This document shows positions 8,342-43,602 of a stretch of DNA of 64,000 nucleotides, piece by piece. A program made the position numbers and the translations under genes. The stretch comes from Haliclystus octoradiatus. Lineage: Eukaryota > Cnidaria > Staurozoa > Stauromedusae > Haliclystidae. The notes beneath the pieces were generated by a model. The model was not told where the DNA came from. It made no database searches and was given only the letters and a program-made list of their open reading frames with translations. The stretch spans positions 10,833,751-10,897,750 of the forward strand of contig OU744447.1 in the NCBI GenBank assembly GCA_916610825.1. The letters run 5' to 3'. Position 1 is the first letter of the stretch; the number at the start of each line of letters is the position of its first letter.

Positions 8342-8396
8342 AGTTATAATTATAATGTTAATGATAAAAAAAAATAAAAAAATAAAAAAATAAAAA

Positions 8397-9226: not shown

Positions 9227-9449
9227 AATAAAAATTATATTATATTATTAATACTATTATCCTTATCATTATTTCTATTAATTTACAATATTATAATTAA
9301 TATCTTACTTTTAAATTCGTATCAATGTATAAACGAGCATTTGCTCATTTTGGTTACGAATCGAAATAAAATTATACACAAACACACAAAGGTTTCAATG
9401 CAGAAATCAAGAATAGAAGATATCTTGTCCCAATATAGATTAACGTCAC

Positions 9450-13991: not shown

Positions 13992-16900
13992 TTATCTACT
14001 ATGGGCTCTTTGTACAGTTACAGCGGGTATTCTATGTGGCATAGAATATATCTTTCTATAAGTGATATTACTCGATGTATTATTCGTCGTATGAAATTCG
14101 TTTGAATTTGTTCGAGCTGCTCCAGAAATAGAGGTACAAGTCTTTTTGTGTTCATCCCAACTAGATATCTGCAAATTGTAATTGTAAACAATCCAATGTA
14201 GACATATGACTGGATTCAATCATATTTTGTAGGTGTGAAGATATTTGATACCACTCATTTCGTTCCTCACAACCAAAGTAGAAAGTCACAATATTAATAA
14301 GTGTTGGAATTGACAAGGTTTTATGAATATAGCTAACGATGATCGTAATTATGATGTTTATGGCTAGTTTTGATTCAATTACTGTCAATATTTCAAGAAA
14401 GTAATAATAATTTATACATTGAAAAAAATTCGTTACAAGCAATTTTTGAATCAATAATCAGTTTCATTGAACAGTATCAGTCGAGGGTGAAGCTTGCTAC
14501 AATATGTCAACTCTATTTCTACATTATACTGACCTGACATTGTCTATTACAAAACCACACGGTACGACACCTTTGACAAATCAGGTTTGTGTATTTTTGG
14601 CAACTGAAACATTTTCTTGTTTCTGTTCTACTCTTTGAGAAATTCGGAATTAACGTTTTACAATTGTTTGATGTTGTTGTAGCAGTACTACCACTGGTTC
14701 TATTTCGAGATGTTTGACATGGGTCCTTTTCTTGGGAAATTTTCTATGGAGAGAATTCCAAAACAGTGTAAACAGTGTAATCTGTGTTAAAAACCAGGAA
14801 ATTATTGAAATTGTTATACATCAGGTTATTTTACACATGCATTGTATTTAATTGGTGTTGTTACTGTCGTTGTTTTATTTGTCAATTCTAAATATTAGTT
14901 CATCATCATCGTCATCATCATCGCCTCCAACTTACACTGACCGCCCTTCAATTACATGTTGAATTTAGGCGATAATAATTAATTAGAATATACTAGATAG
15001 AGGTTTGATAGATCTTTGTTATTAAATTTATTTTTAAAAGTTTGTAACAACTTTAAATTATCCTAGAAATACTAATTGTTTATTTGAGCTAAGTTTTGGT
15101 CTAAAAAAAGTTCAAAATTTCAAAGGTGGGTGGGCTAGACGGAACCAGTAAAAGGCTGTTGATACCATTTTCGTTACAATCTGAAAGGGTGGATGTGCAA
15201 GCTTGACAGATGTCCTAGAGTTCACTAACAATTAGCAAACGAGAAATCCATATCGTAAACTAGGCTACCGAGTTAACGATATGGGTTTTGAGTTTGTTGT
15301 TAGAGAACGAATGGGTCTAAATTTCAAGAGCCCACGAACAAGAGTGATTTAAGCATTTTAATAATCATTTAACATAACCTTTGTCTGGAACATCAATTAT
15401 CTCTCATCAATTTCACTACAACAATGATTTGTTTTCTAATTTAAAGGATCATTGATTTTTCATCAAATACAGTTGGAATGAAATTGCTACGAATATCATT
15501 TCAAAATATGACGCGAAGATTTCTACATAATTGTTTTTCAACATGTTTGCAATATTAAAAATATAGTAAGAGTTACATCTGAATATACCAAGTCCCAAGT
15601 TGTTACTTTTTTGAATTCAAGTTGAATTTTCAATTACAGAGTATACATTTAATTTGATTTTATGAAGAAATATTCAATCTATCACAGCTTGTCGCCATTT
15701 TCAAAACACCTGTTCTAGCTTTTTGGTTAAAATCGTGCAGGTATAAGACCTATACCTGCACCCGTATAGTGGTTACCATGGAATCTCTTGGGTTTGCCTT
15801 GACATAACTGCTAAACACGTGGTACAAATCGACCCATCGTGACTGGAGTTTTTTTCAAGTGATTATTAATACTATTTAATTCAAAATGATCATGTTTCCA
15901 TCCTATGTAGAGCCTAGTACAACGGGTTTGAAATTTTATTCAGGGATATACATGATTAGTTTATAGCTCCAGTTCATACCTCCCTTTCAATATAACTAGG
16001 TACTTCTCCTTTTGATTGTTGATTATCTTGTTGAATTTCAGAGATGAGACAATATGATTTTCCTAAGCGTTCAGCCCCATGTGATGTGCTTTGGTAATAA
16101 TTCATATCACCTCTACGTCTTCTCAACCAATCTTTATAAGAAATGTTATCATTGAACTTCATTCGGTATGATCTACCGCTGGAGTATTGACATTGCTGTG
16201 TGTTATCACTGGAATATCCCTGAACATTGAAGAAAAGAATGCATATACCATCACTCCAATAGATCGTGCTGCTATTCTTATGAATAACAACCAATAAAAA
16301 CAATGTTTGAAATTATGGTTTCTATGGACAGGTGCTCCTCTGTTAATTGTTGTCAATAATATGATCTCAACTTCATTTGACGTCATGAGAAAATTCTAAT
16401 TGATGGTATCGTGCTAAGAATAACGTATTATGGCCTCTCATTACCATCATGACGTCTATTGTTCTAGTATGTTCATGTAACTAGAACAATCTGCTTTATG
16501 TAAATAATTAACTAACTATGCGTACTAGTTTAGAGTATATAAATAGGGCACATGTTGACTCTTGTCAATACCAGTTTAAGCGTTGAAGTGTCCGTCTGCA
16601 ACATCCAATCATAATCATATGCATCAAGTTGGTGGGCTACATCTCCTCTGGATGAATAATGATTCACTAATTCTAATATTCAGGTAAACAACCCTGTAAT
16701 CATGTATCCAGCATTTTAGGGTCGATTGGTTGACGCCTAGAGTCTATATAGGAGTCTCCAACCAATCTAGTATTAAAACTGCATTAATTGTAATTAAAAG
16801 TTTCAATCGCGACATACCTGCTTCAAACGAGAGCTGAAATCAATTTGAATTAAATGTAACACAATATTGTTATTAAAATAAAGATAAATATTGTGTGCAA

Positions 16901-18268
16901 TTCAATTCGACTGCAGTTCTAGTAATCTCCATTTTCAATCGTACTTCATAACTCAATAGGGTTAGGAATGGCTTCAATTGTGATTGTAAAATAAATAAAA
17001 CGGCTTTCAAAGTATTTCTTCAAAACATCAACACAACGATGAATAATTTTGCATATTTCCAAAACCAAAATGAAACCTTGAAAATGTAGGTTTCTAGCCT
17101 GTTTTGGTTTCCTAGGCTTTACTTAATTATAGTCTCCCAACAATTCGGTTCAATATAACTTGGGCTTTTTCTGCATGGCCGTTAAATTATCAAGTCAAGT
17201 TAGTAAGTTATTTAGATCATTTTTGTCTAATGCGGTAGCACGTTCAATCGTTCTTATTCGTGGTAATAGACATCGTCATCCGTGCTGTCCACAAACACGA
17301 TAGAAAGAGTTCTTCAATTTTTGCCAATAGTGGCTCAAATTTTGTCCATCAAACGAAGTTTGAGTATAAAAATTCTATATTGCCTATAACTACAGTCAGA
17401 TAATATATAAGCTGTGCATTGTATATAAAAAGTATTATAGACTTTAGACATGAGAATGAATGTTTTTTAAATTGAGACTTTACTGAAAATATATCTCATT
17501 AGATAAATTACGGAGTTGTTGCTATCAATTACAGAAGAGTAAGTTAAACAGGAAGCAATTTTTGAGCAACAAACATGCAAATGGCAATCGTGTGGTAACC
17601 CTATATTGTAGGCTTGATATGTTAGTCGGTTTCTATCCATGATGATCTCCATCCCCCCTCCCCCGATGAGTTTACATCACTAAATATAGGTAGGAAAAGG
17701 ATTATATTGCACCGTATTATACACTTACCGTTCCTTCCATATTACCAGATGCTTCTCTTGTTGATTTCCTATCGTTTTGTTGACTTTCGCAACAAGGAAC
17801 ATGTGAACTCGTTGAGCCTTCACTGCCATTTGATTTGCTCGGGTAACACGGTGCATCTTCCCGACATCTTCTCAACCAATCCGCATGAGTCACATACCCA
17901 TTGGAATTCATCTGGTATTCATTTTGTTTGTTACTGTTTACACCTTTCACTAATTGTTTTTCCTTTTTCTTCCATGGTTTTTTAAACAAATTGTGCTCTA
18001 TATTCTCATTACGTGGCTCTTGAATAGAGGATGTAACATTATTCTCAGTTGAATCATGGTGTAAAGTTCGTCTAAGGTAAGGAGAATATCGTTCTGTATC
18101 AAATGCCTTTTGCGTGAATGTAGTTGGATTAAACTGATTATCTGTAGCGATTACTGTTCCAGTAGAAGCCCCATTGGAATAACGTAAATTTGCTGCTGAT
18201 TGTCTCAACTTGGATAAAGATGATCTAACCCGTATCATTGCTGGAATATCATCTTCTATGGAAATCAT
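13992..18268 (-). CDS. MYND zinc-finger protein with two DWLR modules, paralogue A (4 exons, 388 aa)
   Basis: Exons (minus strand): 18268-17729, 16219-15980, 14743-14534 and 14168-13992. All introns are phase 0 with AG acceptors and GT donors. Residues 1-115 are basic and Ser/Asn-rich. A first module has DWLRRC at 130-135 and QQND at 163-166; a second has DWLRRRRGD at 210-218 and QQDN at 243-246, so the tryptophans are exactly 80 residues apart. The C-terminus is a complete MYND finger: Cys 305, 308, 316, 319, 325, 329, His337 and Cys341, with CQ ending exon 3 and WDEHKKTC starting exon 4. MYND fingers are zinc-binding protein-interaction domains, often in co-repressors and methyltransferases; this protein has no SET domain or ankyrin repeats. 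An in-frame TAA lies just upstream of the ATG. A possible polyadenylation signal lies at 13903-13898. Function is unknown. A second copy lies at 27289-34569. Confidence 0.78.
16440..16684 (+). promoter_or_regulatory. Conserved intronic hairpin followed by a TATA-type promoter candidate, antisense to MYND gene A
   Basis: Within intron 1 of gene A a perfect 11-bp inverted repeat (ATTGTTCTAGT at 16458-16468, its complement at 16480-16490) is followed by TTTATGTAAA and then TATATAAATAG at 16536-16546. About 75 bp on, an ATG (16619) opens a 21-codon frame that ends at a CAG/GTAAAC donor (16683/16684). The hairpin and the TATA-like stretch are also present in the same intron of gene B (32085-32160), more diverged. 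It could be an antisense transcript promoter or an enhancer. Confidence 0.35.
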
Positions 18269-20552
18269 TTTGAATGCAATTAATTATAAATAAGGCATGG
18301 ACTTCCACATATAATTCCAAGTTATATTGCCTTTTTCATCAAGCATAAAATGAGAAAAAATAATAACACAAAATAGTAATTATATGTGAAAATTATATTA
18401 TAAGAAAATTACACATAAATATGGTACTTGAAGAATGGTAAAAGGATTTCTAGAATGAAATAAGTTAGATTTAACAAAATATTGTTTAGTTTATCCGTAA
18501 AATATTTAACTATAAAACTGTATATATTATAATATTCCATCTACTGAGGCTATACGTAAGAGGATACCCTACGCGTCCCTGTATTTGCCTGTCAAATATT
18601 TTTTTATAATAAGAATTTGGTAAATTAAACAACAACAACAACATATATAACTATAAACCATAAAAACATGATTTGTTATTCAACTCACATGATATTAACG
18701 TATTTTTTTGAAAAAATGTTCTTTAAAGACAATTCAAAATATTCAAGTTAAAATTCATGAATGATTAGCAAAGTATAGAGGGCGTGATTCATGCACCCTT
18801 TTCAAAGTCATTATTATATTTGTGACGCAGTTAAATTAATTTTTGAAAAATAAATGAAGAACATTTTTTATAAACATAACTCATACTACAATATTCGAGA
18901 GTAGTGTCAGATAATGCAGAAATAATTAGCAATAAGTGATTTATATAGTACACTCTATTAGTATTTCCTTCATTTGATAATTTATTTCAATTCATGAAGA
19001 GGACTGAAGACATGTTAGTTTTCAATATGTAAAAATCTTTTTGTAATTTCAGAGCAGAAGAAAAATTTAAAAGTGCCGGAAATGTTCCTCCTATGGATTT
19101 TTCTGAAGTAATATCAATAAGGATTAAATCATTTTCTTTCCAATTAGATTTTAAAGTACCCCTGTCAATAAATTTCTGGCAGCATTGATGAAAGAATAAA
19201 AGTTCTAGATAAGATTAAATATTTAAAAGACCAAATAATCGTTCAAATATTCCCTACATTTTCATTATTAAACAGCTTACACGCTCTGTGATCTGTGATT
19301 CACAATTTTAGAATACATATAAATATAAATAAACTTACCGTATATCTGTCTTGTTTATCTCCTTATAATTTGCTGAAATTGCTAGTGATCAAGCTAACTT
19401 ACGAATAATCAAAATGGATGCATGGTTCTCGAAACAAACGTCAAGCAGGTATTAACAAATATAAATTCTAAGTCACATCGAATGATTCAATCCAGATAAC
19501 AACTGACATCAGTTTATAATTTACGATGTAGTACATGTAATTGAGAAACTTCCCATTGGACTGATCGGATACACAGTTATAATAAATGGGATCCTGAGGA
19601 GATGTAACTTACCTCGGTCACTATGCGCGGAAATACAGAACAAAATGCACCAACTCACTCCCAGCAAGGCAAAAACTATTTGGAAAAGAGGCAACCGAGA
19701 AACCGCTGAGAAAGAAGCCAAACAAATGTATCATATTTACTTGAAAAATATGTATCCTGTAGTTTATGTAATACCAATTTGGAAAGTATCATTTATAGTT
19801 GCAAAATATCACTAAATATATCATACATATGTATTTAAGAAAGATATGTAGCATTAATTTAAAGTGAAATTTTTATATTTATAGCATTTCAACTTCCTCG
19901 TTATCTAATTCTCAAGCAGATTTCTTCACAATAAAATGATCTGTTATTTATCATTATCATCGATTCATGCCATCAACATTCCATCAATTTCTTAAAAGCA
20001 TACGTTCCTTTCTCGTTTTTTTATGTAGCCAGTAAGGCCTCAGATTACGGAGATCAATTCTTAAAAAATTTAAAATTTGATACTTCCCCTAAACTGCTGA
20101 GTTCGTAATATTATGTATAGCTTCGTTTCATTTGTAATTTGAGTTTTGCGTGATTAGAGTTGTGGTTTTGCTTTTCCACGATTGAATTTTGTTGAGAAAG
20201 CATTGAAAATAGCAAAAATAAAACGAAATGCAAATGTGCAACGTCAAGATTGAACAGATCAAGATTCAAAGTTTTCCTCTGAGGCTAACATCTTGGCTAC
20301 CCTAAATTAATATATTACAGACTTGCGACTTGCTGGAAACTTCGCATAGTCTTCAACGTACTTTTCCCGATATTCTGATACAATTTTTTGATGTTTATCA
20401 GGTATATACATAGCAGAGCTCCGTGTCATCTAATGTCGAGAAGGCTTACATGTAGGAAAGTATTCATAAGTGACAAAACATTGTCAAAATATAATGAATT
20501 AAAATCCAAAATAGGTGATTATTACCTTTAAAATAGTTCTAATAATACTTAC
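18269..20552 (-). other. 5' intron / upstream region of MYND gene A
   Basis: This stretch probably holds an intron between a non-coding first exon (20553-~20715) and coding exon 1. A block at 19551-19740 is conserved with 36236-36430 in gene B. On the minus strand it reads GTAAATATGATACATTTGTTTGG, then a CAG acceptor-like site and CGGTTTCTCGGTTGCCTCT. In A it could be read as an exon coding for a hydrophobic segment (19705-19613, GTAAGT donor, phase 1), but the frame and donor are not kept in B, so a regulatory block is likelier. Confidence 0.35.
18540..18650 (+). mobile_element. LINE 3' tail remnant
   Basis: It contains CCCTGTATTTGCCTGTCAAAT followed by A/T-rich DNA and a (CAA)n-like tail. 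The same TATTTGCCTGTCA block occurs at 33895, 43225 and (minus) 62985, where it ends LINE relics. Confidence 0.6.
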
Positions 20553-20715
20553 GTGGTAGCCAGATGCAGCGAATGTACAGAGGAAATCATTGGATATACG
20601 TACACCATCATCGGAATCAAAATGGTATATTTTTGATATGTCAATAAAATAACAAAACCAATTTCAAACGATTCATACAGGCCTTCATATAATACGTCCA
20701 CTGATACTTTCAAGA
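20553..20715 (-). other. Candidate 5' untranslated exon of MYND gene A
   Basis: It ends at a strong donor (CCAC/GTAAGTATT on the minus strand), and the same exon end and donor (CCAT/GTGAGTATT) occur at 37172 in gene B. Its only upstream ATG frames are short (MKACMNR then stop in A, MNR then stop in B), which suggests a 5' UTR exon with a small upstream ORF. It starts just below a TATA-like element. A coding role in another frame cannot be excluded. Confidence 0.45.
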
Positions 20716-20729
20716 TTCTTATTTTGTTT

Positions 20730-20860
20730 TATTGTAAAACGAGGCAATATAAGGCTAGTGTAGAAGGCTAATACGTCATACAGAAGTACAGCTGATATTG
20801 GCTACCTGGTTGACATGAAAACGAGTTCAATTTACTTTGTAAATTACATTGCAACGAACG
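20730..20860 (-). promoter_or_regulatory. Conserved promoter of MYND gene A: CCAAT, E-box, CRE, TATA-like
   Basis: On the minus strand, in order: CCAAT (20801-20797), the E-box CAGCTG (20794-20789), CRE-like TGACGTA (20778-20772), then CTACACTAGCCTTATATTGCC ending about 30 bp above the presumed start of transcription. About 70 bp are almost identical to 37345-37412 in gene B, far better conserved than the surrounding introns. Confidence 0.6.
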
Positions 20861-21440
20861 CTGGATTGTTTCAAATATGCCACCTATCATCATTCATTTT
20901 TACTATATTGATTTTGTACTTACTGGGATCCAAATAAATCCTTTATGGAAGTCGACGTCCACTAACTGATATCTCGAGAATAAGGTACGGTTGACTATGG
21001 GTATCACCGGAAAAGATCCATGATATTTACTTCACCAGTGGATGCTAGGATATGAAACTAGCGGTTAATACCTAAATGGATGCCAACCATTTTGAAATCG
21101 TATAAAATCGTATAGTATATTGTAATATCTCATCAACAGTTTTCCGTCAAAGATATATTCATGATGTTTTTTGGAGCGTACGGTGAGAAAGCACTGTTCA
21201 AATACAGAACCTCATGCAAATACATGGACTATGCCGTTACCTTTCATTCTATCAATCTGTAATGTTTTCAACGCATCTACAGTAGTCACCGAGGATAATT
21301 CAACATATTATTATAAATTCAACATCGCCACGACGATTCAAGTCAAAAACTACAATATTCCATAATGGTAGGGTATTAATTGATTGTTTTATTGCGCACA
21401 ATGTACCCCCGTACAATGCAACATTACTGATTAAGAAATA
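20861..21440. other. Non-coding block shared with gene B upstream region
   Basis: It contains ACTTCACCAGTGGATGCT (about 21040) and GATGCCAACCATTTTGAAA (about 21080), both present at about 37645 and 37690, and a CACGACGATTCA/CATAATGGTAGG block (21325-21375) present twice in B (37945 and 38145). No convincing coding frame is conserved. Confidence 0.5.
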
Positions 21441-21599
21441 TGGTATGTATCAAATTTGGCATAAACATCAGGATGACATAAACACCAACAGATATGAATT
21501 ATAATTTTCAAGTATCGAGTGAATTTTTTTTAGAAAAGATAGGTGTTCATGAATATAACCAATTATACGTTTCCTATTAACATATGTAATTCAGAAGCA

Positions 21600-22500
21600 G
21601 AATGGATATAATATCTGAGACACTTTCCACTAATTCTTCATTAGACCTACAATTGCAGTTCATAATTTTTAACTAGATCAACCGTTGTAAGTTCGAATAA
21701 TTATGCAGTTGATAATGTTTACCTCTAAACTGCTAGGCTTGTTCCATCCTTCGTCCCATGATATGTTTACAACCCCCTTTCTTCCTCCATACGAACGCAA
21801 AAACTTATGAATGTTTATGATATTTCATTTCTAGTTTACAGCAAACTCAAAATAATTTCCCGTCTAGCTGCTGTCTGTCAATTTCGAAATTAGTTACAAA
21901 ATTCTATTCTAATATTGACAATCATAACAAATTGACAGATTAGCCTTGACAATCGAAGTTTATTTGTTTGAGAAAAGAAAAGAACACAGATTAGACGTTT
22001 AGTGGGTTATGCCAGCTTAAAATATACTTCCTAAATTGTTGACTGCAAACTGGAACCACATTAATATACATGACATGCAAATTTTGATTGTAGAACTTTA
22101 TTATAAAAATGAAAACAAAGCTATTGAATTGTATCCCAAAAGGTATGTTACAAAAGTATCATTTGTAATACTATGAGATACTATCCCCTGATTCTTTATG
22201 AGACTTACAATTGATATTTTTAATTGGACTTTCCTTTGATAGTTCAGATACTCGGTTAGTAATGTTTACATCCAATCGGCTAGCCTAATTTTATTCCTCG
22301 TCCCATGATATTTCTGTTTAGAATGTACAATAATCCCCCCTCCTTTCCCCTAATAAAAAACACAGAAGCTCAGATCAGATTGAAAAGATACTGTACAATA
22401 CCTTATATTGCTTTAATTGTAATTTATTTGCTTTTCAAATGTTTTTGATATGTCATTTTTAGCTTATCGCAATATGATCAAAATATTTTCCCGCCAGATG
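21600..22500. repeat. Local duplication upstream of MYND gene A
   Basis: Two similar stretches share GTTTAC..C.AA..GCTAG, CGTCCCATGATAT and a downstream TTGATATGTCATTTTTAGCTTA-like region (about 21715-21870 and 22255-22500). Gene B has a single counterpart near 38545-38800, so A gained a local copy. Confidence 0.45.
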
Positions 22501-22550
22501 ATTTTCAAATTAGCAACATAATTGCTTTTTAATTCTTTCAGAAATATGCA

Positions 22551-22571
22551 TCGATATATATATATATATAC
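22551..22571. repeat. (TA)n microsatellite
   Basis: Short TATATA tract; a second one lies at 24003-24031. Confidence 0.8.
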
Positions 22572-23997
22572 AACTATAGAAAGAGAAAGTTGGTCCTGAT
22601 TTTTGAAGTATACTTTTTGGAAAATTCGATTAATTTTTTGTGTTACTATTTATCCATAGTTTCAAATGTACTTCAATTGACTGCAAACTGAAACACATTA
22701 CGCCTTGAATGTAAAATTTGATTGCTTAGATTTCGATAAATAAATTGACAAAATTAAATGAGTTTAGTATAACATTTGAAAATAAAGTTGAATTATAATA
22801 TTGAGCACCAAACAACAATTTTCCATAAACATGACAAAATCCGGAATGAAAATTGAAAAAGATTTTAATATAACATGGAGCATACACATATGAATAAAGA
22901 ATCGATGACAAAATTGAAAGTTAATAAATGGAAGTGAGGCATAAAATACAAACAATTTATCTTCGATTCAAATAAAATATGAATGATCACTTTAATAATG
23001 ACATTAGATAAATAGTTAAAGAGTCTACAGTTTATAACTTTCTAATAAATATGATTGACTAAAATATCTTAAAATATATTTATATATACAAATGTTGCTA
23101 AAAATTCATTATTAAATATCAATCTTAACATATAGTTTGCTTTTTTTTTTTCAAGTTTCATTACTCGATATGTTATCATACATATCTTAGTATATACCTA
23201 AAAGTATTTACATTACTATATGATTCATAAATCATAACAAATATATGATATGAATGATATGATGATGTAGTTAATAAGGAATGTTATAATTATTAGATGT
23301 TAAATCTTATCGCAAAGAAGATAGATGACAAAGGCTTTATTTAAATAATTACCCGAGATTAAGAAGTATATAAAAAAACTTAACAGAATATCAAATCTAG
23401 AATCTGAGCATCATAGTGTTTTTATAAATTTTCATCTTCTCAAAAAATAGAATAGAACTTGTAGCTGTTACCTGCTTTTTTATCTCAAATATATAATCTT
23501 TATTTGTGAATGAAAATACCAACCGATTGACCCAATCCTATTCTTCACATATTATTACACTTGTTTATTTATCACAATAAAAACAACTTTTTATTTTGGT
23601 TCAGAGGAAATTTAGAAATTCCGGTAAATCATGAAATAATAAATTATTGTCTGATGAACGTGAAACGTCGTAACATTTGTTGTAACTTTGACAATACTGT
23701 CCTTCTTAACTTCTTTATTGTTATTTATCAATTAGATTTTGTGTCCAGTAACAATCCAACAATCACGTACACTTAATTACAAAGATAATTCTTAAATATC
23801 TGCAATCTTATTGGGTATATTTATGGTTAGTGTTCTGATAATGAAAATGTGATCAAATTTGCAATGATGAGCAACAACAACAAGAAAATTGTATATACTT
23901 AAATATAACATGTAACCATAATCCACGTACAGAAAAGTATGATAGAGTTCTCCATTGTGCAGTTAACAGAAATTGCCAAATTTCATCATATAATTCC

Positions 23998-24035
<38 letters not shown>

Positions 24036-24239
24036 ATACCATCTAACTTTACATGGAGACATCTCTGCTGGTAACCATTATTCCAATATATTAACAATTG
24101 CAAAAATATACCAGCTACAGTCGGAATATCATGAATGACTTGATTCACTCTTTGTAATAAATAGGTAAAGTTTTATCCTTGAAATTTGATCATAAGATGA
24201 CTCAAACTCGACAAAAATATCAAGAAGTTTCATGATGTG
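22572..24239. other. Intergenic, AT-rich, partly paralogous to 38860-40700
   Basis: No gene is seen. Scattered similarity to the region upstream of gene B continues (for example AATCTAGAATCTGAGC at about 23395 and 39915). The ORFs here are short and unconserved. Confidence 0.5.
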
Positions 24240-24370
24240 AAATAATATAATTCGAAGCGGCTGCTGTGTATTGGTGACCTGACAAATATGCGTCATGAAG
24301 GTTAACCAATTGCAATTCACCCTTGAGGATTTTAACCAATGGCAGGATAGCAGCTTTATTGTAATAGCCA
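24240..24370. promoter_or_regulatory. Distal conserved element A with paired CCAAT boxes and CRE-like site
   Basis: It contains AATAATATAATTCGAAGCGG, CTGCTGTGTATTGG, GCGTCAT (24290-24296), TTAACCAAT (CCAAT at 24306-24310) and TTTAACCAATGG (24336-24340), then AGCAGCTTT. The same order appears at 40705-40860 upstream of gene B. It lies about 3.5 kb above the presumed start of gene A, and could be an enhancer, an alternative promoter, or a promoter of an unseen plus-strand unit. Confidence 0.45.
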
Positions 24371-27240
24371 AATTAGGCCATGGATAATTTGTATTTGGGA
24401 CAATTCATTATAAGAACTCAAGCAATGAGAGACATACAGATTCAATAGTCGCTATGTACTGAAATAATATCTGAAAATAGCCAACCAAAAATATAGTCTA
24501 ATAAATTGATACGATGTAGAAATAGATTACATGATGCAAATGTGACGAGAATAGATACATTGAAACTGTTAAACATTGGTAAAAAGTATCGTCAATCTAT
24601 AAGTAATAAGTAGCAATATGCAATTATTCATGCATATTTTTCAAATATTAAAAATGAAGAAACAAATTCATTATGATGCATTCATTTTAGAAAACATTGT
24701 CATAAAATTGTTTACAGAATAAGATCTGTAAAGTATAAATGTTTCATTACATGTAGATTTTCAATACAAAATTCAATGCAATTATAATTTTTATTCTGAT
24801 GGTGGAATTAAAAAAGCGTTTAAAAAATTGTTTGATAAAATTACTGCAGTAGTTTCTGTTTTATTCCATAATCGTTTACAGAAAGCATTTGTTTCCATAG
24901 AATCCCTTTCTATCGACTATTGTTTTGGAATACAATCAATTTCTAACAGAGAGTTATGAATATCTTTTTTCTCTTCAAAGTTACATGCTTTGTTTACATC
25001 ATATGATCATAGCTTATAAGAATAATATAACTCCTGTTTCGTGCGTACAAACATGACAATATATAGATATGAGATACTGGTTTTGTACTACTATTATGCT
25101 ATTATGTAATTAGGTGGTGCTTATCCGCGGAGCATTCCCAAATGTTGTTATTTTTAAAAACTGCATAAATAGAAATATAGAATAGATTACAGGATCATTT
25201 GTTTGTGATTGTGTCCATAAATAGCAAATTTCTGCAGATTTCTCATCTTGTATTCTCTCATAATCTCATCTTCACATTTGACCTTTAACCTCTGACTTTT
25301 CAGCGTTTCAATAAAATGCTGATGACCGTAGTGAATCGATCACCCCAGGCTATAGATCGCCCAAGAGATTCCACATAGAAAATTACGGATTACGTAGCTA
25401 AGATTACCTCAAACAAATCGTTTGTTTACTGAGAACCCGTAGTTGTTAATATAGAATGTGAAATACATCATTATACTATCATCATTCAGTTTTGTTGAAT
25501 CACGCATCAGATAGCATTTTGATTACTTTCACTATATAATATGTCATAGAAAATGTGATTTCATCACATGATATTTGCCACGTGGCTGTTTGTGATTATA
25601 CCTCCACACTCTGACGAATCTGTGCATTAAACAATGATTGAGTCAATGTTTGTCCATTTTCCACTTTCAGAGTATTATTGTTTTCCCTGGGGTGTCAACT
25701 CCAATGACATATTAATATACGGTACCGGGTACAGCAATATATGAAGGAACGTAACACTTCGGTCTAATTTCCAAATTAGTAGGATGCTATGAGTATCAAG
25801 AGTGCAAATTAATTCCAAATAGAACGCCATTCTATTACCTTTTACTGTATATATGAAAAAATCAAAAAGGAAGTAACGTCTCTGAAGTGATACGAGCGGT
25901 TACTGCTAACATCACGTGTGCAGGACTGTACTGAATTATATATTTTTAATCCCGAATTGAACTCGAAATTGTATGCTTACCTTTAAATCATATCTCTGGA
26001 AAATCTTCGTAAAATTCTCAAAGAATATTACTTCGAATGACGATGTTCCAATTCCGCATTATCATGGCTCACCTTTTTTGAACTCTGTTTTCGTTGGCTA
26101 ATATTTTGTTCGATTATTCTATCATCCAATCAGTTTAAAAAATTGCATCAAATTAGCAAATAGCGACATTTCTCTAAGCCAATCAGAATTGAGTAATTAA
26201 TTGTATATTATATTATATCAAGTATATTATAATGGTGAATGTTTATTACTTCATTGGAGCTTAATTAATATAAAAAATATTCCTGAAAGTTTGCACATCC
26301 GATGAACCAATGTATCAGGATCTAGTTAACCCAGCAGCATAAAGCACGTTCACGGACATAAATTCTGGTTTATTTGGATGAACGTTTAGTTGTTTAATTT
26401 ATTTGTAAAGCAGCAATATTATTTTTGATTTATATACAAAATATACAAATAAGTGTTAAATTAATTATATATTTTAGATATTTCGATGCGTATTTATACA
26501 ATGTGTAGATTTAAAAATATATAAATTTTTGAAGAACCAATTTGAAGGTAACTGATTATAATCAGAGCCTTCTAATTATATCGTGTACAGGCAATGTTAA
26601 CCAAATCAGTGTCGATACACATGCATCCAAATGCGAAGTAGACATGAGTAGTGGTCGGGGTAATCGTCCATGGCAGGAAATTTGAAATTTCGAGGCGTCA
26701 TCAAATTCTAATAAATTATTTAGAATTTAAATCGGGGATATTTAAGTTGCACACAAAATAAATAAAATGTAAGCGTCTCTTCTGTGAGCTATCTGTAAAT
26801 TAAAGTTAATGAGGCGTTTGTAGTATTGTAATTCTAAATATGAATCCAAATAAAATATGATGTATTTAATCGGCATTGTACAACGCAGATCTTTTAATCG
26901 TAGACCAGATTTTGGATCCTTATACTTAAGAATAGGGCGCACAAAGGTTATGAACATCTGTTTCTGAAAGTTAAAATTGTGAGTGCGGAAACCACGATTA
27001 TCATCTTTGTTCTTATTCTAGCCTTTCTGACAATCGACGAGATGTGCGGATGTGAGTCTAACGACGACATCATTAATATCATTTTTTCAGAGACAGGTTC
27101 CAATTCAACATTATTAATATAATACGATTCATTCTGATTGTTATTTATGAGAGTGTGTGCTTGTGATGGTTATTTTACAAAGCAATAAGGATACGCACAG
27201 TTTGGGTATATAATGTATAGCGTACAATATACGCTATCTG
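24371..27240. other. Intergenic spacer between the two MYND loci
   Basis: About 2.9 kb without a supportable gene. I see no long repeat and no conserved counterpart in the window. Short minus-strand ORFs (for example 26742-26957) have no recognisable content. Confidence 0.5.
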
Positions 27241-27288
27241 TATGAACGTTTGTTTATAAAATTAGGGATCGTAGAATTTATGCTCGTT

Positions 27289-30200
27289 TTATCTACTATG
27301 GGGTCGTTGAACGTCTAAAATCCGTGTTCTATATGGCATATGATCTACCTTTCCATAATTGATGTGCGAGTATTTCATTCTATCATGATATTCGTTTGTA
27401 TTTGTTCGAGGTACAAAAATAGGTGGCGTACAGGTTTTCTTGTGTGTATCCCAAGCAGAAATCTGAAAAAGAATATGTCGTAATTGTAAACAAACCCACA
27501 AGGCCATGGACACGAAGAGTAACCAATGTCAAAAGATGTTAACACAGATTCAAATAGCTGTTAAAAGAGGAATATTGCAAGTTCTGAAAGCCAATTATTT
27601 TTCAGGCTACGCAAGCCATCATTCAGTCATGATGTACTGTATACATGCTTATACTCTCTAATATTTAATTTCTAAGAAGTGGTGGATAGTGGTGTATAAC
27701 TTAATTATCGTGTACTAGTGTATACAATAATACTTGCTTGTTATATAAGTTTGATAGCTGTTGGCTGGTCACGAATATGGGTAATAATTCGTCCAATCCG
27801 GCGTTAAGCCACTTTCCCTCATGAACCAAAAAACAAAACTGTTGGGTGATAGCAGAGTTATGTTATTATTTGCGTATGATAATTTTAAAACATTCTGGAT
27901 AAATTTGAAAATTGTTTGGTAAATAGATTTTGATTTTTTCCCTGTCGTTAGCGTTTCCGATGTTCCTGTTTGCCTTTTGTTGGTTTGGCTAACGGAGGTT
28001 CATCGGTCTTGGTGAATGAGCCTGTCTGCTGTGTTTCAGGGATGATCTGCATGGATATATCGCCATTAGCGATGTTTACCAAGGATATTTTCAGGTTCGT
28101 CATTCATGACAATATCTCTACGAAACTGGAGATAGAGAAAGCACATAACGTATATAGAATCATAACGTTAATAAATTAAACCGAACCGGATATCGGATAA
28201 TTATACGTATCACAAATATTAATTCGTAATTGGCACCTTTATCCCTATAAGTTTATAACCATAATAAGTTAATAACCTTATAATATGAAATGATCATTTA
28301 GCAAGTAGACAACTAGCCCAAGTTGGCTACCGTCGAAAAATCACCGAGGTCCTCCGAGGTTCCTAGCTCTAGTTTCCTAGCAACTTGAGCAAGGTACGCC
28401 CGTATCGGACCTCTCATTCGTTGACGATATTGCTATCTTAACAAATAGCATATCTGATGCACAACAGCTTCTTGATGAAGTTGAACGGGTTGGTAAAACG
28501 GTAGGCTTGACAATTAACACGACTAAGACAAAATTTATTGCTTTAGGCATAAAACAGGCACACCTTGCAACATCTAATCGTGACATAGAACGTGTAGATT
28601 CGTTCAAGTACCTAGGTTCTGTACTTCCATCTTCTTCAGATGATTTAACACAACGTAGAGGCCAGGCTTGGGCAGCCATTAGAGGTCTGAATAAATTCTG
28701 GGCGTCCGATGTCAACACTGACGTTAAGTTAAGACTGTTCAGACACACGATAGAACCTGTTCTATTATATGCATCTGAAACGTGGGTTCTATCAACCTCA
28801 TTATTGACCCGACTTGACTCTGCTTATGACGCCATGCTTCGGCATGCTTTAGGAGTACATTGGCCCAACTTACTGTCTACTGCTAAACTTAGAAAACTTT
28901 CCCCTTCTGCCTCTGCTATTGCTCACCAACGTCAGATGTCTTTTTTAGGTCACATCGAAAGATCAAGGACGTATGCCCCTCAACCGCTGCATGACATCCT
29001 TCATTGGCGACCAAAGGAGATGCTTCGTGGGGCTATGGTAGAGTAGTATCTTTTCATAATGTTTTGTATCGTGAATTGTGTTGTTTAAAAGTTTCTTTGT
29101 CAGCCATGTCTGACCGTGTTTTGTGGCGTTCTTTGTGTAGCAAATATGTAAGCCGTAAGAGGGACGGCCCATTCCTATAATGTGACTGTCTATACTAGCA
29201 AGGTAACTGAAGTATCTAAAAATATAGAAATGTTTGCCGTTTGTAACATAAACGTATTTTGTTTACAAACTTTATCTTACTAGCTACCTAATCTGCAATA
29301 AAGTAGCGAAGAAAAGATTGCGGGAAGATTGTTAAACAAGATTAAAATTGAACTTCATCTCATATTTTGTTGCTTGTTTTGTTATCTTGGGCACGGAATT
29401 TACAACACTCTCGTATAAAATTGATTAAAAAATATTTGCGAATCGCTTGTTTACTTTTTGAAATTTGCAAGGGACATTGCCAGAGTTCACTATGAGAAAA
29501 TAGTGAACGATTGAGCAACGAATCAGAATGCAGATCATCGAATAGTACCCTATAGTCGGTTTCGACTAAAATGAAATATATCCTTAAGAAGGTTCATAAA
29601 CACCATAACTCGTATTATGAAATGTCTTTATTGAGGATTATCATTAATATCTGTTCATAAACGCAAAATTCGTACTATGGAATGCCTGATGGAATTTCAA
29701 ATGAAGAATTAAGAAATTGATATTTGGTTTTGGTATAATATTATGTGTACCATAGCTGTGATCGAAATACATTGCATCAAGAGTTGTTCTTGATATATGG
29801 CATAAAATTTATAATAGTCGCCTTGTCAGATAATGTTGGTATTTATCTGATATCATTTTAAATTTCCAATACCCCTGTCAGGCATATTTGGCTTGTTGGG
29901 AGCTCATTATTGTTCACGTTGCCTATAGGTTTACATTGGTTTCAACCTATAACAATTTGCCAATGTATGGGTCAATTGACAATAGGCAAACGCGATCGAA
30001 AAACATATTTGATTGGCATGCATATGTAAAGGATATTGAAATAATGTTAAATCATAATTTAACAGTTTTCTTTTGATTTGATTGAATATTTCATGGTCGT
30101 AAGTTGTTTATTTTACTTCAAAATTTCGCTTAGAGAGGAAATGAGAGAATTAAATCATAAAAAATTGTCAGGGGGCATACCACCGGACCATCCTAGATGG

Positions 30201-33200
30201 GTGGGGCCACTTCGTGGCAGCCCCTATTTTGAGCCAATCTTGACCAATACGGTGTTCTAAAATACTTTTTCCGCCCCTTGGCCGCAGTGAACAATATCAG
30301 AACGTCAAAACTTTCAATCACGTTTATTAATCAATGATACCAACCTGACATTGTTTACCACAAAGCCACGCAGCTCGACACCTTTGACAAATGAAGTTTG
30401 TGTATTTTCCACAATTGAGGCATTTTCTTATTTCTCTTTCACCCAATGAGACGTTTGGAATACACGTTTCATGGTTAGTTGATATAGCAGCAGACGACAT
30501 CTCATTCGTTCTACTTTGAGCTTTTTGGCATTTCCCTGTGGCACTGCTTGATAATTCCTAGAATAGACGATGCATCATTGCATAATAATGCATTGGATCT
30601 CTACAGAGAATTTCTAAACGGTGTATAGAGCTTGTTGACATCGGGAATGTTGGTGTGGAATAAACAATGCATTTCGTTGTCACAGTCTTTTCAAAATATG
30701 CAACCATGGTTATCAAAATCTTCTTAAAAGCTTAAGGAATAATTTGGAACATATGAAAAAGCTCTATATATTATATTTAATCTATAGACTTCAATCCGAG
30801 GACTTCACAAGCTAAGACTATGTAGGAGCCTTCCCGAACCCTCTTGACATTCTAGAGCAAGGATAACCTACAACTATCTTTATATAATTAATTTGTAAAA
30901 TATCACATTTTCTGGAAATATATTCACAATCACTGTTGTTTAGTACAGAAATAAAGACAAATTTCATTCGTTCAACGCCCTCAAAGATAATTTGTAACCA
31001 GACGTTTATAATCAAATCCCTTACTTTTTCTTTTCTTTTAACTTTCTCAAAAAGCGTAGCATCATTCATTAGGCTATTTTTTCAACGAAACATTTTCCTG
31101 CTTCACCAGCCGTATTGAATATAAGGCAACAGGTCAACAGTATAAATAGATACATGATTATATACACGTTATATAGCGTATACCTCCCATTTGATATGAC
31201 CAGATGCGTCCTTTGTTGGTTGTTTATAATTTTGTTGAATTCCAATACTGAGACGATATGATTTTCCTATACCTTCACTGTCATATGATTTGTTTTGGTG
31301 ATAACTCGTATCACCTCTCCGTTTTCTCAACCAATATTTCTGAGAAATGTAGCCGTTGAACTTCATTTGAAATGATCTAATGTTGGATGGTTGACATTGT
31401 TGTCTTTTATCACTAAAAGATCCCTGAAAATACATTAAAAGACGAATGCAGGGGCACTGAATGATGAGTCCTGCTGTATTTTGCTAATATATCCCTGAAC
31501 AGGTTATTTTGTTTCGCTCCACCAGGAAATGATTTACAAAATATATGTGCAACCAAGCTCACAACCTGCACGGATGATCCGGGAAAGCTTTGGAGGCCTT
31601 ATAAATTGGTTCTGAAATGATGAAAGTTTAGCCACATTTTGTCTTCAGCAGAAAGCCAATGCATGAATATTTTGAAATAATATTAAAATAAAATTGCACA
31701 ACAGTAATAAAATCGTGGTGGTTTATATATTGTTCAGAGAATATGATGTGAGACAGATATTTATTGGTTATCGCCTTTATCGCTCAGCTACCCAAAGACT
31801 GATGCTATATGCCTACCAATTCTGATTAGGTGGTAGTATACCAAACCAGGGTTCACTTTTCTACTCGACTCTCGGCAGCCCTGAGAAAATGCATACTTTC
31901 GATATTATTAAGAGATAGTTCCAATACATCATACTCTATAACCCATTACTAAAACGAAGCAACTGCACAAATTATGGTCTCTATGGACAGGTGTGTATAT
32001 GTTAGAATATTTCAATGTAAAAGTGTCATATGACAGTCATCATGAAAATGTCTAAGGGACACTCAGCAAGATGGCATTGTTCTTATTGTTCTACGATGTT
32101 CATCTAACTAGAACATTCTGATTTATGTAAACAACTGTAAGCGTATAGTCATATATTTATACAGAAAACTTGTATTTCAAATGTACTGGTCTGTATATTG
32201 CAATATGAACGCGCTGGAAGGTTGATCTGCATGCAGTGACTAATCAGAATAGCTTTTGTTAAATTGATGAGTTACGAATGTACTGAATGAATATTGATTC
32301 CTCTTGCTTGATCCTGGGAGACAATCATATAGATTATACTTAATTTCCACAGAGCCATTCAGAGTAGTATACACCTAGGTCTAATCTAGAATTGCAGCCA
32401 CTTGTAAAATATGGAAATAATTATGTGGCTGTGCTCTAACACCCATCTATCATAATCGTATTATAATTATGTACAACAAAAATGGAAAAATACTAAAACT
32501 ACATTCTTGGTTTCCTCAGCTACCATCTCACCGCTGATTCACTGCAAGGGCATTAACTTTCGGATTGGGTAGACAAAACACGTGCTCTTAAAAAGGTTTT
32601 ACCCTGTATCACTCATTATCAGAGTTCAACGTGATTCAAACGTTGCCATATACATCAGTTTGCATTGAAATAAATTGTTAACTAGTTCAGTAATCAGTAT
32701 TCATATAGCTTCCCTCCTGCCTCCCTCCTTACGACAATAAAGCAAAACATGATTCAAAAATTGTTTATATGTTCTTGATATATCATCAGGTTTATTATCT
32801 CTTTAAATACGTAGATAAATAATTCTGAATAATTTCATAGTTTGAAATTAGAAAATAACAAATATTCCTTGCGGTCCCATTCGTTGACGCTTACGCCATT
32901 GTATCGTGATACATCTAAATGTACAAAAAATTAATTTTTTACAGAGTAATCCCCTGGTGGAATTCTCTACTTGAATCATAAGTAACATCCAAAAGCCTCT
33001 ATTTATTCAAAACAGTGCTTGCTGACGCGGACCTTTCCTCATTTTGCAAAGTATTTTAAACATAGCTTATCGATGACAATACCATCACTCTCTTACTGCT
33101 TGTAATATAAAGCTGTATTTTGTTTATAGTTAGGCCATATTTTAGTGAGAGTTTCACTCTCCTCTGTTCTTGCCTATCATTTATGACGAATTAAATGAAT

Positions 33201-34569
33201 GAATGAATGAATGAATGAATGAGTGAATGAATGAATGAATGAATGAATGAATGAATGAATGAATGAATGAATGAATGAATGAATGAATGAATGAATGAAT
33301 GAATGAATGAATGAATGAATGAATGAATGAATGAATGAATGAATGAATGAATGAATGAATGAATGAATGAATGAATGAATGAATGAATGAATGAATGAAT
33401 GAATGAATGAATGAATGAATGAATGAATGAATGAATGAATGAATGAATGAATGAATGAATGAATGAATGAATGAAAGAATGAAGGAATGAAAAATTTATA
33501 GAAGGATGATGATGATGATAATGGTAATGACAACAAGGATGATGTTGATGGTAGTCATATATAGTGACAAGATACACAAGCATTAAAAGACAGATACAAG
33601 AGCTAAAGGATTATATGGCATGGCATTGGCATGCAAGACATGTTTAGAAATATAATTCAGCTTCCTATTTTATTATTTTGGACCAGATTAGAGAAGTTGC
33701 AAATAATATAATATTGTACTGGCGAAAAATCGAATCCAGCTGTCCTGCACATCGTAGATATGTATAATATTGATGTATCACATTTATGAAAAAATATATA
33801 AATAGTATAATCTTTAATCATGTGAAGGTTAAATAAAATGTTAATAATTTTAATGGTTTTTCAAGGCTGTATATGTAAGTGTACAATGGAGTTGTTTTAG
33901 ACTCCCTTTATTTGCCTGTCAAAATTATCATTTTTATTTTGACAAAATAAATAAATAAATCAGACAAACCTCTGCCTCTGAGTTACTTAATATTACACAA
34001 TATAGAAAACCTGACATAAGTTCACATACCTTCCTTTCAATATGAATAGATGAATCTCTTGATGATTGTCTATCGTTTTGTTTACTTTCACGACAAAGAA
34101 TACTCTCTAAGCCTCCACTGCCATTTAATTGGATTGGATAATAACTAATATCGTCACCATATCCTCTTAACCAATCCGCATGAGACATATACCCATTGGA
34201 ATTTATTTTAGTTTGATGTTGTGTGTTGTTGTTTACACCTTGCACTAGATTTGTTGTTTGTTCGTTCCATGGTATAGGTTTTATTATCTGATTGTGCTCT
34301 ATGTTCTCATTATGTGGTGCTGAAATAGAGGATGAGATATTGTTCGCATTTGAATCATCTAGATGCGAAATTGGTCTAACGTAAGGAAAATATCGTTCTG
34401 TGTTAAATGCCCTTTGAGTAGATGTATTTGGATCAGCCTGATTATTTGTAGAAATAATCCCCATAGAAGTTGCATTTGCGAAACGTAAGTTAGCTGCTGA
34501 TTTTCTCAATCGTGATAAAGATAATCTAAGCCTTCTCTCTGATGAGATATTATCATCTACTGAAATCAT
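27289..34569 (-). CDS. MYND zinc-finger protein with two DWLR modules, paralogue B (4 exons, 388 aa)
   Basis: Exons (minus strand): 34569-34030, 31423-31184, 30557-30345 and 27462-27289. Phases are all 0 and lengths (540/240/213/174) nearly equal those of gene A. The N-terminus shares SAANLR near 24-29 and NENIEHN near 87-93. Module 1 has DWLRGYGDD (132-140); module 2 has YWLRKRRGD (210-218), where the leading Asp has become Tyr. The MYND ligands are Cys 306, 309, 317, 320, 326, 330, His338 and Cys342. A strong acceptor (TGCATTTCAG at 34635) lies 65 bp above the ATG, so a 5' UTR intron is likely. The exon 3 donor is GTTGGT, weaker than usual. Intron 3 carries an RTE relic and intron 1 a GAAT microsatellite and a LINE tail. 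The function is unrecognised. Confidence 0.78.
28388..29170 (+). pseudogene. RTE-like LINE reverse transcriptase 3' fragment
   Basis: An open frame from about 28388 to 29046 encodes QGTPVSDLSFVDDIAILTN (the catalytic box reads FVDD), GLTINTTKTKFIALG, FKYLGSVLPSS, LRLFRHTIEPVLLYASETW, DAMLRHALGVHWPN and HQRQMSFLGHIERS. A frameshifted tail continues to about 29170 (SAMSDRVLWRSL). Motif order and the ASETW and FLGHI signatures are those of RTE-type LINEs. It is 5'-truncated and sits antisense in intron 3 of MYND gene B. A short second copy lies at 58340-58550. Confidence 0.8.
29171..30344. other. Remainder of intron 3 of MYND gene B
   Basis: No gene is seen. A small duplicated motif (CATAAACACCATAACTCGTA and CATAAACGCAAAATTCGTA, 29595 and 29655) and a GGTGGGGCCACTTCGTGGC hairpin-like stretch (30200) are the only structure noticed. 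Confidence 0.4.
33194..33487. repeat. (GAAT)n microsatellite, about 290 bp
   Basis: About 73 tetranucleotide units with a single GAGT interruption near 33221 and decay at the right end. It lies in intron 1 of MYND gene B and is absent from gene A. Its minus-strand reading (SFIHSFIH...) is an artefact. Confidence 0.98.
33880..33960 (+). mobile_element. LINE 3' tail remnant with ATAA repeats
   Basis: CCCTTTATTTGCCTGTCAAAA, a loop, then TTTGACAAAATAAATAAATAAAT. The inverted TTTGCCTGTCA/TTTGACAAA pair followed by short tandem tails matches 43225-43290. Confidence 0.6.
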
Positions 34570-34639: not shown

Positions 34640-37171
34640 ATGCAAGGAAAAAGCTACAGAAAATCATGGATATATGTGCAACTGTGTTTAAAGAATCCCA
34701 TAATTACAATTCAGAGAAGGATAGAGGAATCCATAGTATATGTGTTGTATATAAAGCCCTGATCAAATGAAGTCAATATTTGATGAAAATTTCGATTTAT
34801 TTTTATTTTTTTGTTCGATATTCTCTTTTTCGGTTTACTTCTTTGCTCTGTTTTTATTGCAAATATTCTATCCAAGAGTTTCCATCAATAGAACAATAGA
34901 GAAAATTATTTAAAAAAATGTTTTTTTAATTCAACATAAAATCCTACCAAGCACTATCTTTTTAATTGTCCACAAAAATTATGTCAGAATTTCCAATAAA
35001 GATATCGTTTGAAGATCATTATCCATTAGTTTATATTAATGTTTTGCAGTAGATATATATGGTATGATTTTGCAAACTAAATGATCCAATTCCAATATGG
35101 CGAAAAAAAATTTGAGAGTCAAAACATACAACTTGCAAATCATTTAAATTGCAATATAATTTTCAACTCCTGTCTAGTAAAATCTCAACGCTATATAAAG
35201 TAAAGATATAATATTTTTCTTAATATTTTTCTTGTAAATCAGAATTTGATATCTAAAATATATAAATTTGCCTACAAAATAAAATCAAATTAAAATCAAA
35301 ACTAAAGAGACTGCTTCCTTTAGAGGTGTGTCTAGACAGTAAACCAAGGCGAAGGAAAATATCCCCAACGTTTTATTTCCTCCAAGAAAACAATCATAAA
35401 TTATCCATTATAGTAAAGCAAGATTGAAATTAACACCCCGTTGTGATATCTTATAATAAAATGTCGTCTAAAACATTCAAGTTCAGTTACCTTAATGATT
35501 AGCAGAGTGGGAATGTGATTTAACGCAAGCTTTTCAAGGTCAATATTTGTGACGCAGTTGAATTAATTTTGAAAATTATTTAAATTCGAGAAGAATTTTC
35601 TTTTTCATAAACACTTCTCATATGTACTATTTCCAAATGTAGCATTATAAATATTTATCAATCAATGATATGTTAAATATATTCATATTTGATTCTATTT
35701 TGTTGTCTTTTCCAATTTACAGGACGGCATGCCAGATTTAAGGGCATGAAACTCCTTTTATAATTTCAGAGCAAAAGCAACAAAATGATTATGGAAAGTT
35801 CAATAAATATCCCACCTGTGATTCAGTTTCGGTAATATCAATAATGATTAAATAATTTTATGGTAAATTAGCTTTATAGATGTGCCTGTGTGACTCAACA
35901 CTCGTCTCCTGAAAATATTGATGAAAATTGAAATATGCTTGATAAAAAGGATTGATAAAACAACAAACATGGTTTAAAATGTTCACTACATTTCCATTCA
36001 AATCTAATTGAGCACCCTCTGATCTGTAATTCAATTAAAATAAGTTTATGAATATATGTAAAATTTTAATATATCATCCATATTTATTTCCTTATTAGCT
36101 ATATATCTAGTTTACTTACGTTACGTATAACCAAAATGTGCTGTAAATCCAACCAAAATAAATTGTACGTCACGCCGAAATGACTCAATCCAGAACACAA
36201 GTAAATTCAGTTAAAAATCTATGATGTAAATGTAATATTTCCAACGAGCTGATTGGTTACTCCAGGTACGATAAATGGGAACCTAAAATTAGAAGTAACA
36301 TATCGATAACTACACGATGAAATACAGGGGAAATGAGACAACTACCAGAAAGGCAGTGTGTATTTTGGAAAAGAGGCAACAGAGAAACCGCTGGCAAAGA
36401 TTCCAAACAAAAATGTATCATGTTTACTGGTAAAATATTTCTATCCTATACTAAATAATACCAACGTTGATAATATTAACTTGATGAGTTCGATAATTCC
36501 AATGCGTGATGATTAAAGAAAGACCACTCAAACGTATTTATTTATTTTAAGATAAGATAGTCGTATCATTCATTCATTAATTCAAATTCAGTGAATAATA
36601 TATATATATAATAAACCAATCTGCTAGTTGCCATTACTACCCATTTATGTTATCAAAATTCCACTCATATCAAGACTTCTTTCTCGTTAATTTTTTTCAC
36701 CTGGTCAATAAGCTCTATCGGTTACGGAAATCAATCTGTCAAAATATGACATTCGTTATACTTCACACAGACTGCATATTTTGCAAAATGTACGGTCTAG
36801 TTCCAATCGAAATCCAAGTTTTACGTGACTAGTAGTCAGTAGTTGTGGCTTTGCATTTCTACAATTGAAATTTGTTCACCACGCATTGGAAATAGCAAAT
36901 TATAACAAAATATGTAATATATCCAATGCTAGAGTCAACACATTGTAGCGCCCATAAAAAGGCAATCTAGCACTTTTCTCCAACCTTTTGAACACTTTCC
37001 TGCTTAACAGATCTTCGTAACAGAGCCCGGAGTCGTCTAGTGTTAAGAAACCTTTCTTTATGTGAACTATGTGTTTATAAATATGAAACATCATCAACAT
37101 TTATAACAACAGCTTTAACAGAAAACCAAAACAGTTGATTATTACTTGGAAAAAGTTCCAATAATACTCAC
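34640..37171 (-). other. 5' intron / upstream region of MYND gene B
   Basis: Probable intron between the untranslated exon at 37172-~37330 and coding exon 1. It includes a block at 36236-36430 conserved with 19551-19740, containing GATACATTT..TGTTTGG and CAGCGGTTTCTC on the minus strand. No open frame common to both copies was found. Confidence 0.35.
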
Positions 37172-43290: not shown

Positions 43291-43379
43291 AACCTAATAT
43301 GATATCTATTATAGAAAAATTTAATTTTGATCAATTGGTTACTATGTTTTTATAAATTTTCTCCTGTCCTTTATGTTTG

Positions 43380-43602
43380 TGATGTGAGAAACAAAAAATG
43401 TAAGTTGTCAACGCTTGTCCGCCCGCTGTACATACACGTGGAATCCCTCTGCCAGTTACTGATGGTATGCTCCTCTACATCTAGTAAAGTAGAGCGAAGT
43501 TTTAGCAAATTGCGCAGGTTAAAGACATGGTTAAGAGGCACAATGACTGCATCCAGACTGAATGCCCTTAGAGTGTTTGCCATTCAAACAAAGTCGTATT
43601 AG
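43380..43602 (+). pseudogene. hAT transposase C-terminal dimerisation fragment (ZMYM1-like)
   Basis: The plus frame carries STSSKVERSFSKLRRLKTWL, RGTMTASRLNALRVFAIQ and a stop. This matches the hAT C-terminal dimerisation motif (x-AERSFS-LRR-KT-LRS-M---RL--L). Only the last ~60 residues are credible, so it is a fragment. Confidence 0.8.

Follow-up and report, generated by a model that had tools for sequence, protein, structure and literature searches.

Two neighbouring MYND-finger genes of Haliclystus octoradiatus as putative adaptors with a history of exon and local gene duplication

What do two neighbouring genes of the cnidarian Haliclystus octoradiatus encode, when their only familiar part is a zinc finger at the very end? 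The genes, here called A and B, lie in a window of 64,000 nucleotides, which is the whole stretch of DNA analysed (G000:C2:10833751-10897750, from a genome of 262 Mb in 33 contigs, of which C1 has 40 Mb). Judged on sequence, A and B are reasonably likely to code for proteins of a small family that evolves fast and bears its MYND finger at the C-terminus; these proteins would serve as largely disordered adaptors.

Two paired genes ending in a MYND finger

The exons, in gene order, are as follows.

34030..34569, minus strand: gene A exon 1, 540 nt, N-terminal module and repeat unit 1
31184..31423, minus strand: gene A exon 2, 240 nt, repeat unit 2 (a copy of the tail of exon 1)
30345..30557, minus strand: gene A exon 3, 213 nt, linker followed by MYND ligands 1-6
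27289..27462, minus strand: gene A exon 4, 174 nt, MYND ligands 7 and 8 (His, Cys), then the C-terminal tail and stop
17729..18268, minus strand: gene B exon 1, 540 nt, N-terminal module and repeat unit 1
15980..16219, minus strand: gene B exon 2, 240 nt, repeat unit 2
14534..14743, minus strand: gene B exon 3, 210 nt, linker followed by MYND ligands 1-6
13992..14168, minus strand: gene B exon 4, 177 nt, MYND ligands 7 and 8, then the tail and stop

An earlier reading of the letters alone (the sequence-only reading) had described two minus-strand genes for 388-residue proteins, with these exon sizes, phase-0 junctions and a finger split at a matching intron, and in all of this it was exact. 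Each gene yields 388 amino acids plus a stop, and all six introns of the pair are GT-AG and phase 0; splicing at these borders we infer. Identity between the proteins is 49% in blastp (392 columns), or 194 of 384 when codons are aligned, and since their similarity extends over the full length with E = 1e-120 the likeness is not due to chance.

Membership in the MYND class is clear for both proteins: the eight zinc ligands stand in MYND order, and the Pfam profile zf-MYND (PF01753) scores 26.8 bits in A and 31.5 in B, above the curated cut-off of 22.7. Six ligands are encoded by exon 3 and two by exon 4, with the intron directly after the residues CQ. The proposal that nothing outside the finger matches a familiar family was likewise upheld, as no other Pfam family exceeds its cut-off in A or B (below it are Corazonin in A, E 0.32, and Swc3 in B, E 0.017) and NCBIfam, a library built for prokaryotes, gives 0 matches. 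The partner domains SAND, TAFH (NHR1)/NHR2 and SET have no match in either protein at E up to 1 in Pfam, where weak matches may be filtered out. Against the sequences of solved structures, A finds 39 entries at E up to 1, with ZMYND10 (2e-5) and ETO (1.4e-4) at the head; all of those below E 0.3 are MYND fingers aligned to residues 297-351, and three matches outside the finger have E 0.31-0.33.

Comparison with known MYND proteins places the likeness in the finger. The spacing C-x2-C-x7-C-x2-C-x5-C-x3-C-x7-H-x3-C occurs in eight of the 12 fingers compared, namely those of A, B, two further genes of this genome (D and E, below), ZMYND10, ETO, and an ETO-like and a DEAF-1-like finger of the same genome. 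ZMYND10, a dynein-arm assembly factor, carries its C-terminal MYND finger behind a long N-terminal part of a type particular to it. It shares the ligand spacing and is the top solved-structure match of A and of the finger of E (5e-7); the match, however, covers only residues 302-345 of A, and the solved ZMYND10 chains are finger-sized (60-70 residues), leaving its N-terminal part outside the comparison. The NHR4 finger of ETO/MTG8 (RUNX1T1, CBFA2T1) has the same spacing, keeps the Gln and Trp discussed below, and with ETO2 is the best match of D (5e-4); yet TAFH/NHR regions are unmatched in A and B, and the genome's ETO-like finger (L007) lies elsewhere in an unsplit frame. Similarly, the DEAF-1-like finger (L043) has identical spacing with Gln and Trp in place, but is a separate, unsplit finger, and SAND is unmatched in A and B. 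SMYD methyltransferases, in which a MYND finger interrupts the SET domain, differ from A and B in the SET domain, for which both proteins are blank.

An exon duplication, a third copy and distant relatives

For the lineage-specific MYND family suggested by the sequence-only reading, the animal genome searched was the window's own. Protein B finds 15 places there at E up to 10: the eight exons of A and B, three belonging to a third copy (C), one MYND exon (C2:13924669, E 7.5e-5) and three weak matches (E 0.04-0.9), gene E among them. Copy C, on the plus strand, occupies C2:10815761-10818249, between 18.0 and 15.5 kb outside the left edge of the window; it is inverted relative to A and B, and C and B are oriented towards each other. 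Its exon 1 (501 nt) and exon 2 (234 nt) are intact; its exon 3-like stretch is interrupted by two in-frame stops, with the final part of the finger missing, and for exon 4 a search of 30 kb at E up to 1 gave no match. By its sequence, C is a decaying member, its finger broken. No further copy was matched in the 10 kb right of the window. The sequence-only reading had treated A and B as an unrecognised pair; they are, by sequence, real paralogous genes, and the pair turns out to form a cluster of three together with C, beyond which come the more distant D and the weaker candidate E.

Exon 2 is homologous to the ~62-residue tail of exon 1, with alignment scores of 71-109 that 0 of 1000 shuffles reach in each of four A/B comparisons; control comparisons with exon 3 are at chance (89, 410, 209 and 618 of 1000 shuffles). 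Among the six units of A, B and C, identity is 45-57% between first units, 48-67% between second units and 28-40% between the two kinds, and the exon-2 units group together as a clade (IQ-TREE ultrafast bootstrap 100; FastTree 0.99). The simplest reading of these sequences is that exon 2 arose once, by duplication, before A, B and C separated. This internal duplication had been overlooked, whereas the matched exon lengths and phases were correctly described. By sequence the family carries a clear exon-duplication history; as a gene duplication the case is ordinary, its third copy in decay.

Two more distant genes share the position at which the finger is split.

C2:13922476-13923063, 13924564-13924755, 13928924-13929037: gene D, exon ends read from the sequence by eye
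G000:C6:14782520-14787522 (L031; ~14.78 Mb), minus strand: gene E, a weaker candidate relative on another chromosome

Gene D is ~3 Mb away, with a complete finger split at the same place after CQ; its intron showed no exon recognisable as a counterpart of exon 2. A genome search with D recovers first the exons of D itself, followed by B (6.2e-6), A (3.5e-4), E (0.005) and the DEAF-1-like finger (0.01), below which come two weaker places. Homology of exon 1 among A, B and C is clear; exon 1 of D scores a marginal 7.5 bits against their profile, a value reached by two of 962 reported shuffles (1000 made). A match of D to the A/B repeat was considered and rejected as not significant (best domain 2.4 bits; shuffles up to 6.7, n=500). 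Gene E is long and Q-rich, with an 805-aa open frame upstream and a finger at the very C-terminus, split at CQ. Its DWLRR motif matches the A/B repeat no better than shuffles do (best domain 2.8 bits; shuffles up to 4.8, n=500), and was set aside as a repeat shared with A and B. Upstream of E lies a Tudor-like exon, with Pfam matches below their cut-offs, which may or may not belong to the gene.

A profile of the A and B fingers was scored against 23 fingers, comprising 18 of the 29 zf-MYND matches in the genome (E included), A, B and D, and two fingers from the Protein Data Bank; the 11 left out were nine rows at 39.7 bits, one at 38.8 bits and L041. After A and B themselves come D (49.7 bits), E (38.4), ZMYND10 (24.8) and L042 (23.8). 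The best solved-structure matches differ, D pointing to ETO2, ETO and DEAF-1 (5e-4 to 8e-4) and E to ZMYND10. What A, B, D and E have in common is a phase-0 intron directly after CQ, in a finger that is broken in C. In the genome-wide list 27 of the 29 matches run over profile positions 1-39 in one frame, in a search that under-detects split fingers and from which A, B and D are absent. By eye, the genome's fingers include ETO-, DEAF-1-, EGLN- and SMYD-like kinds. Connexin (PF00029) has 0 matches in the genome, a weak negative because the controls of that search were silent as well.

A broader proposal, which we put forward only tentatively and consider somewhat doubtful, is that A, B, D and E belong to an animal family not yet described, whose members would be adaptors with a MYND finger at the C-terminus and, as their mark, the intron directly after CQ within it. 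To this, A, B and C would add a new constrained N-terminal module (SLSxLRxSAANLR), the family radiating here by exon and local gene duplication with a free linker and two docking ends held. The titles and abstract starts consulted describe no such MYND family, which may still be in print. Should the shared intron prove old, it would define an unrecognised MYND family and provide a simple marker for other animals; the family by itself leaves the understanding of MYND proteins unchanged.

Selection, proposed function and competing explanations

The selection analysis uses, besides the codons, a homologous flank upstream of each gene.

35470..36911, minus strand: upstream flank of gene A, homologous counterpart of the B flank, aligning at 64% in 1572 columns
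18736..20229, minus strand: upstream flank of gene B, homologous to that of A (~1.5 kb aligning)

By pairwise codon likelihood (our own implementation, F3x4 frequencies, several starts), the maximum-likelihood (ML) omega, the dN/dS ratio, between A and B is 0.625 for the whole protein, with a profile range of ~0.46-0.86 and a difference from 1 at p = 0.005. Along the protein it is 0.28 for residues 1-60, 0.72 for 61-118, 0.70 for 119-180, 1.15 for 181-260 (exon 2), 0.65 for 261-303, 0.30 for 304-344 and 1.03 for 345-388. The two ends pooled (1-60 and 304-344) give 0.28 (p = 7e-5); because the segments were picked after the alignment had been seen, segment p values are optimistic. The low value of residues 1-60 recurs in comparisons with C (0.39 for A-C, 0.37 for B-C). 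For exon 2 those comparisons give 0.47 and 0.39, though it is the fastest part between A and B.

The open frame provides a further signal. Neutral simulation left 0 of 2000 runs stop-free for either gene, with a mean of ~17 stops, under settings that put all observed divergence on one gene and a base composition chosen by us. Between the exons of A and B there are 27.7% substitutions and six gaps (whole codons by construction, in a protein-guided alignment), every exon is a multiple of three and no stop occurs. The homologous flank differs by 25.8% over 1364 ungapped columns, a lower bound because local alignment favours better-kept parts, and has 71 gap events, of which 57 are not divisible by three. 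Selection keeps the frame, and most residues change at about the flank rate. The sequence-only reading had argued from kept coding lengths for selection on the protein: this is sound for the frame, residues 1-60 and the finger, and overstated for the residues of the middle and tail. A dN/dS near 1, which it had named as a refuting result, is found for much of the protein and not for the whole by ML, simpler estimators being less clear.

The proteins themselves are basic (pI 9.4-9.5), rich in S, N, R and Q, and show no hydrophobic segment (highest 15-residue mean 0.75 in A and 0.39 in B). Structure models of exons 1 and 2, built from 3-sequence alignments, have mean pLDDT values of 43.7 and 44.6. 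For the Gln and Trp of the finger, a study (PMC3555993) names Gln529 and Trp533 of DEAF-1 for corepressor peptide recognition and describes them as conserved in ETO; both positions are kept in A and B, as in ETO.

We propose that a D-like ancestor gained exon 2 by duplication and that the resulting gene was then copied locally at least twice. Its product would be a basic chain, probably disordered, in which a short N-terminal segment is constrained and a "WLR" repeat occurs twice, and its C-terminal finger may dock proline-containing partner peptides through Gln and Trp, making the protein an adaptor, with the nucleus as the likelier place of action. A particular sequence would be needed in the N-terminal segment and the finger only; the middle would mainly have to stay open and of similar length. 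If so, the case illustrates how new adaptor genes may form: by a duplicated exon, local copies, and one copy losing its functional domain, while the reading frame remains open and selection maintains two short ends.

Several observations weigh against this proposal. The Gln/Trp pair is present in 12 of the 12 fingers checked; therefore it does not single out a peptide-binding class, whose defining property is the binding of PxLxP-like peptides, and we infer the adaptor role from the domain. Low pLDDT fits disorder, but shallow alignments alone could give the same. The 283 codons outside the two ends have an omega of 0.83, not distinguishable from 1 (p = 0.37). Simpler estimators blur the whole-protein signal: NG86 gives dN 0.32-0.33 and dS 0.42-0.45 (bootstrap omega 0.60-1.04) and LWL85 gives dN 0.32 and dS 0.294, a ratio above 1, beside a YN00 value of 0.334/0.433. 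Differences by codon position number 118, 104 and 97 of 384, without the usual excess at third positions. For the finger only (37 codons), YN00 gives 0.295/0.215, again above 1, beside 0.185/0.717 (~0.26) by NG86 and 0.207/0.31 (~0.67) by LWL85; the strength of constraint on the finger depends on the estimator, with few codons to go by.

Could A and B be recently decaying paralogues, following C in losing function, with frames still open because constraint was lost lately? C shows what such a course looks like, with two intact exons ahead of in-frame stops and an unmatched exon 4, and both the omega near 1 over most of A and B and the equal frequency of substitutions in exons and flank fit it. 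Decay nevertheless seems unlikely to us: drift would be expected to leave ~17 stops and many frame-breaking indels, neither of which A and B show, and ML gives constraint for the finger and the N-terminus. Alternatively, the fast middle may not simply be relaxed; diversifying selection of the sort seen in reproductive or host-conflict proteins may act on it. Omega values of 1.15 for exon 2 and 1.03 for residues 345-388 lean that way, as do YN00 and LWL85 for exon 2, also above 1; but no ML segment is significantly above 1 and exon 2 falls to 0.47 and 0.39 against C, which makes this distinctly unlikely.

It is also conceivable that A and B belong to a known MYND family (ZMYND10, DEAF-1 or ETO) that has diverged past recognition outside the finger. 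Such an origin would account for ligand spacing equal to that of ZMYND10, ETO and the DEAF-1-like finger, and for the best structural matches (ZMYND10 for A, ETO and DEAF-1 for D). The match is confined to the finger, however, and SAND, TAFH/NHR and SET are unmatched in both proteins. The genome has separate ETO-like and DEAF-1-like fingers (assigned by eye), and against the A/B finger profile these score 17.5 (L007) and 18.2 bits (L043), well under D and E; we regard a known family in disguise as highly improbable. The adaptor family with two constrained ends is the reading we keep.

Non-coding blocks and other features of the window

The introns had been described as diverged beyond easy alignment. 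Mostly they are, but intron 1 keeps blocks of 51 bp (88%) and 25 bp (96%), the shorter of which is found as follows.

31969..31993, minus strand: 25-bp element in intron 1 of A
16310..16334, minus strand: 25-bp element in intron 1 of B
G000:C2:10816946-10816970, in gene orientation: 25-bp element in intron 1 of C

At up to 2 mismatches the genome yields these three matches, all in gene orientation, and a reversed control yields 0. The element is better conserved than its surroundings; it may be regulatory, or only a slow stretch.

In the homologous flanks of A and B no reading frame kept over their whole length was found. A 102-aa plus-strand open reading frame in the upstream block of B (19507-19815) was rejected as a conserved gene: it has no Pfam match, its counterpart in A is limited to a 28-residue part (57%), and neighbouring frames match about equally. 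The well-kept short DNA stretch upstream of both genes (19507-19815 and ~36330-36410) is similar in several frames at once, and is therefore probably non-coding, conserved as DNA rather than as protein.

Elsewhere in the genome, one MYND finger sits in what looks by eye like a retroelement: L035 (G000:C7:11806200-11816199) has a 1571-aa open frame with the finger ahead of a Ty3/Gypsy-type protease, reverse transcriptase and integrase. Ten of the 29 zf-MYND matches share an identical score of 39.7 bits, L035 being the one inspected. No MYND-bearing Ty3/Gypsy-type element is described among the titles and abstract starts listed.

The window holds these further features.

1085-2170 and 28381-29046 (the latter in intron 3 of gene A): reverse transcriptase fragments, above the Pfam cut-off, transposable element remains
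12016-12348 and 43315-43602: a protease-like and a hAT-like piece, below Pfam cut-offs, transposable element remains
8364-9233: simple repeat ATAAA, ~870 bp
33194-33491: simple repeat AATG, ~298 bp, in intron 1 of gene A
near 52.0-52.2 kb: 200 N bases, either masked sequence or a gap in the assembly
55654-62889, minus strand: Kelch-like (KLHL) gene, with a BTB and BACK exon at 62248-62889 and Kelch repeats at 55654-55977

The BTB part of the KLHL gene is closest, among solved structures, to Kelch-like protein 3.

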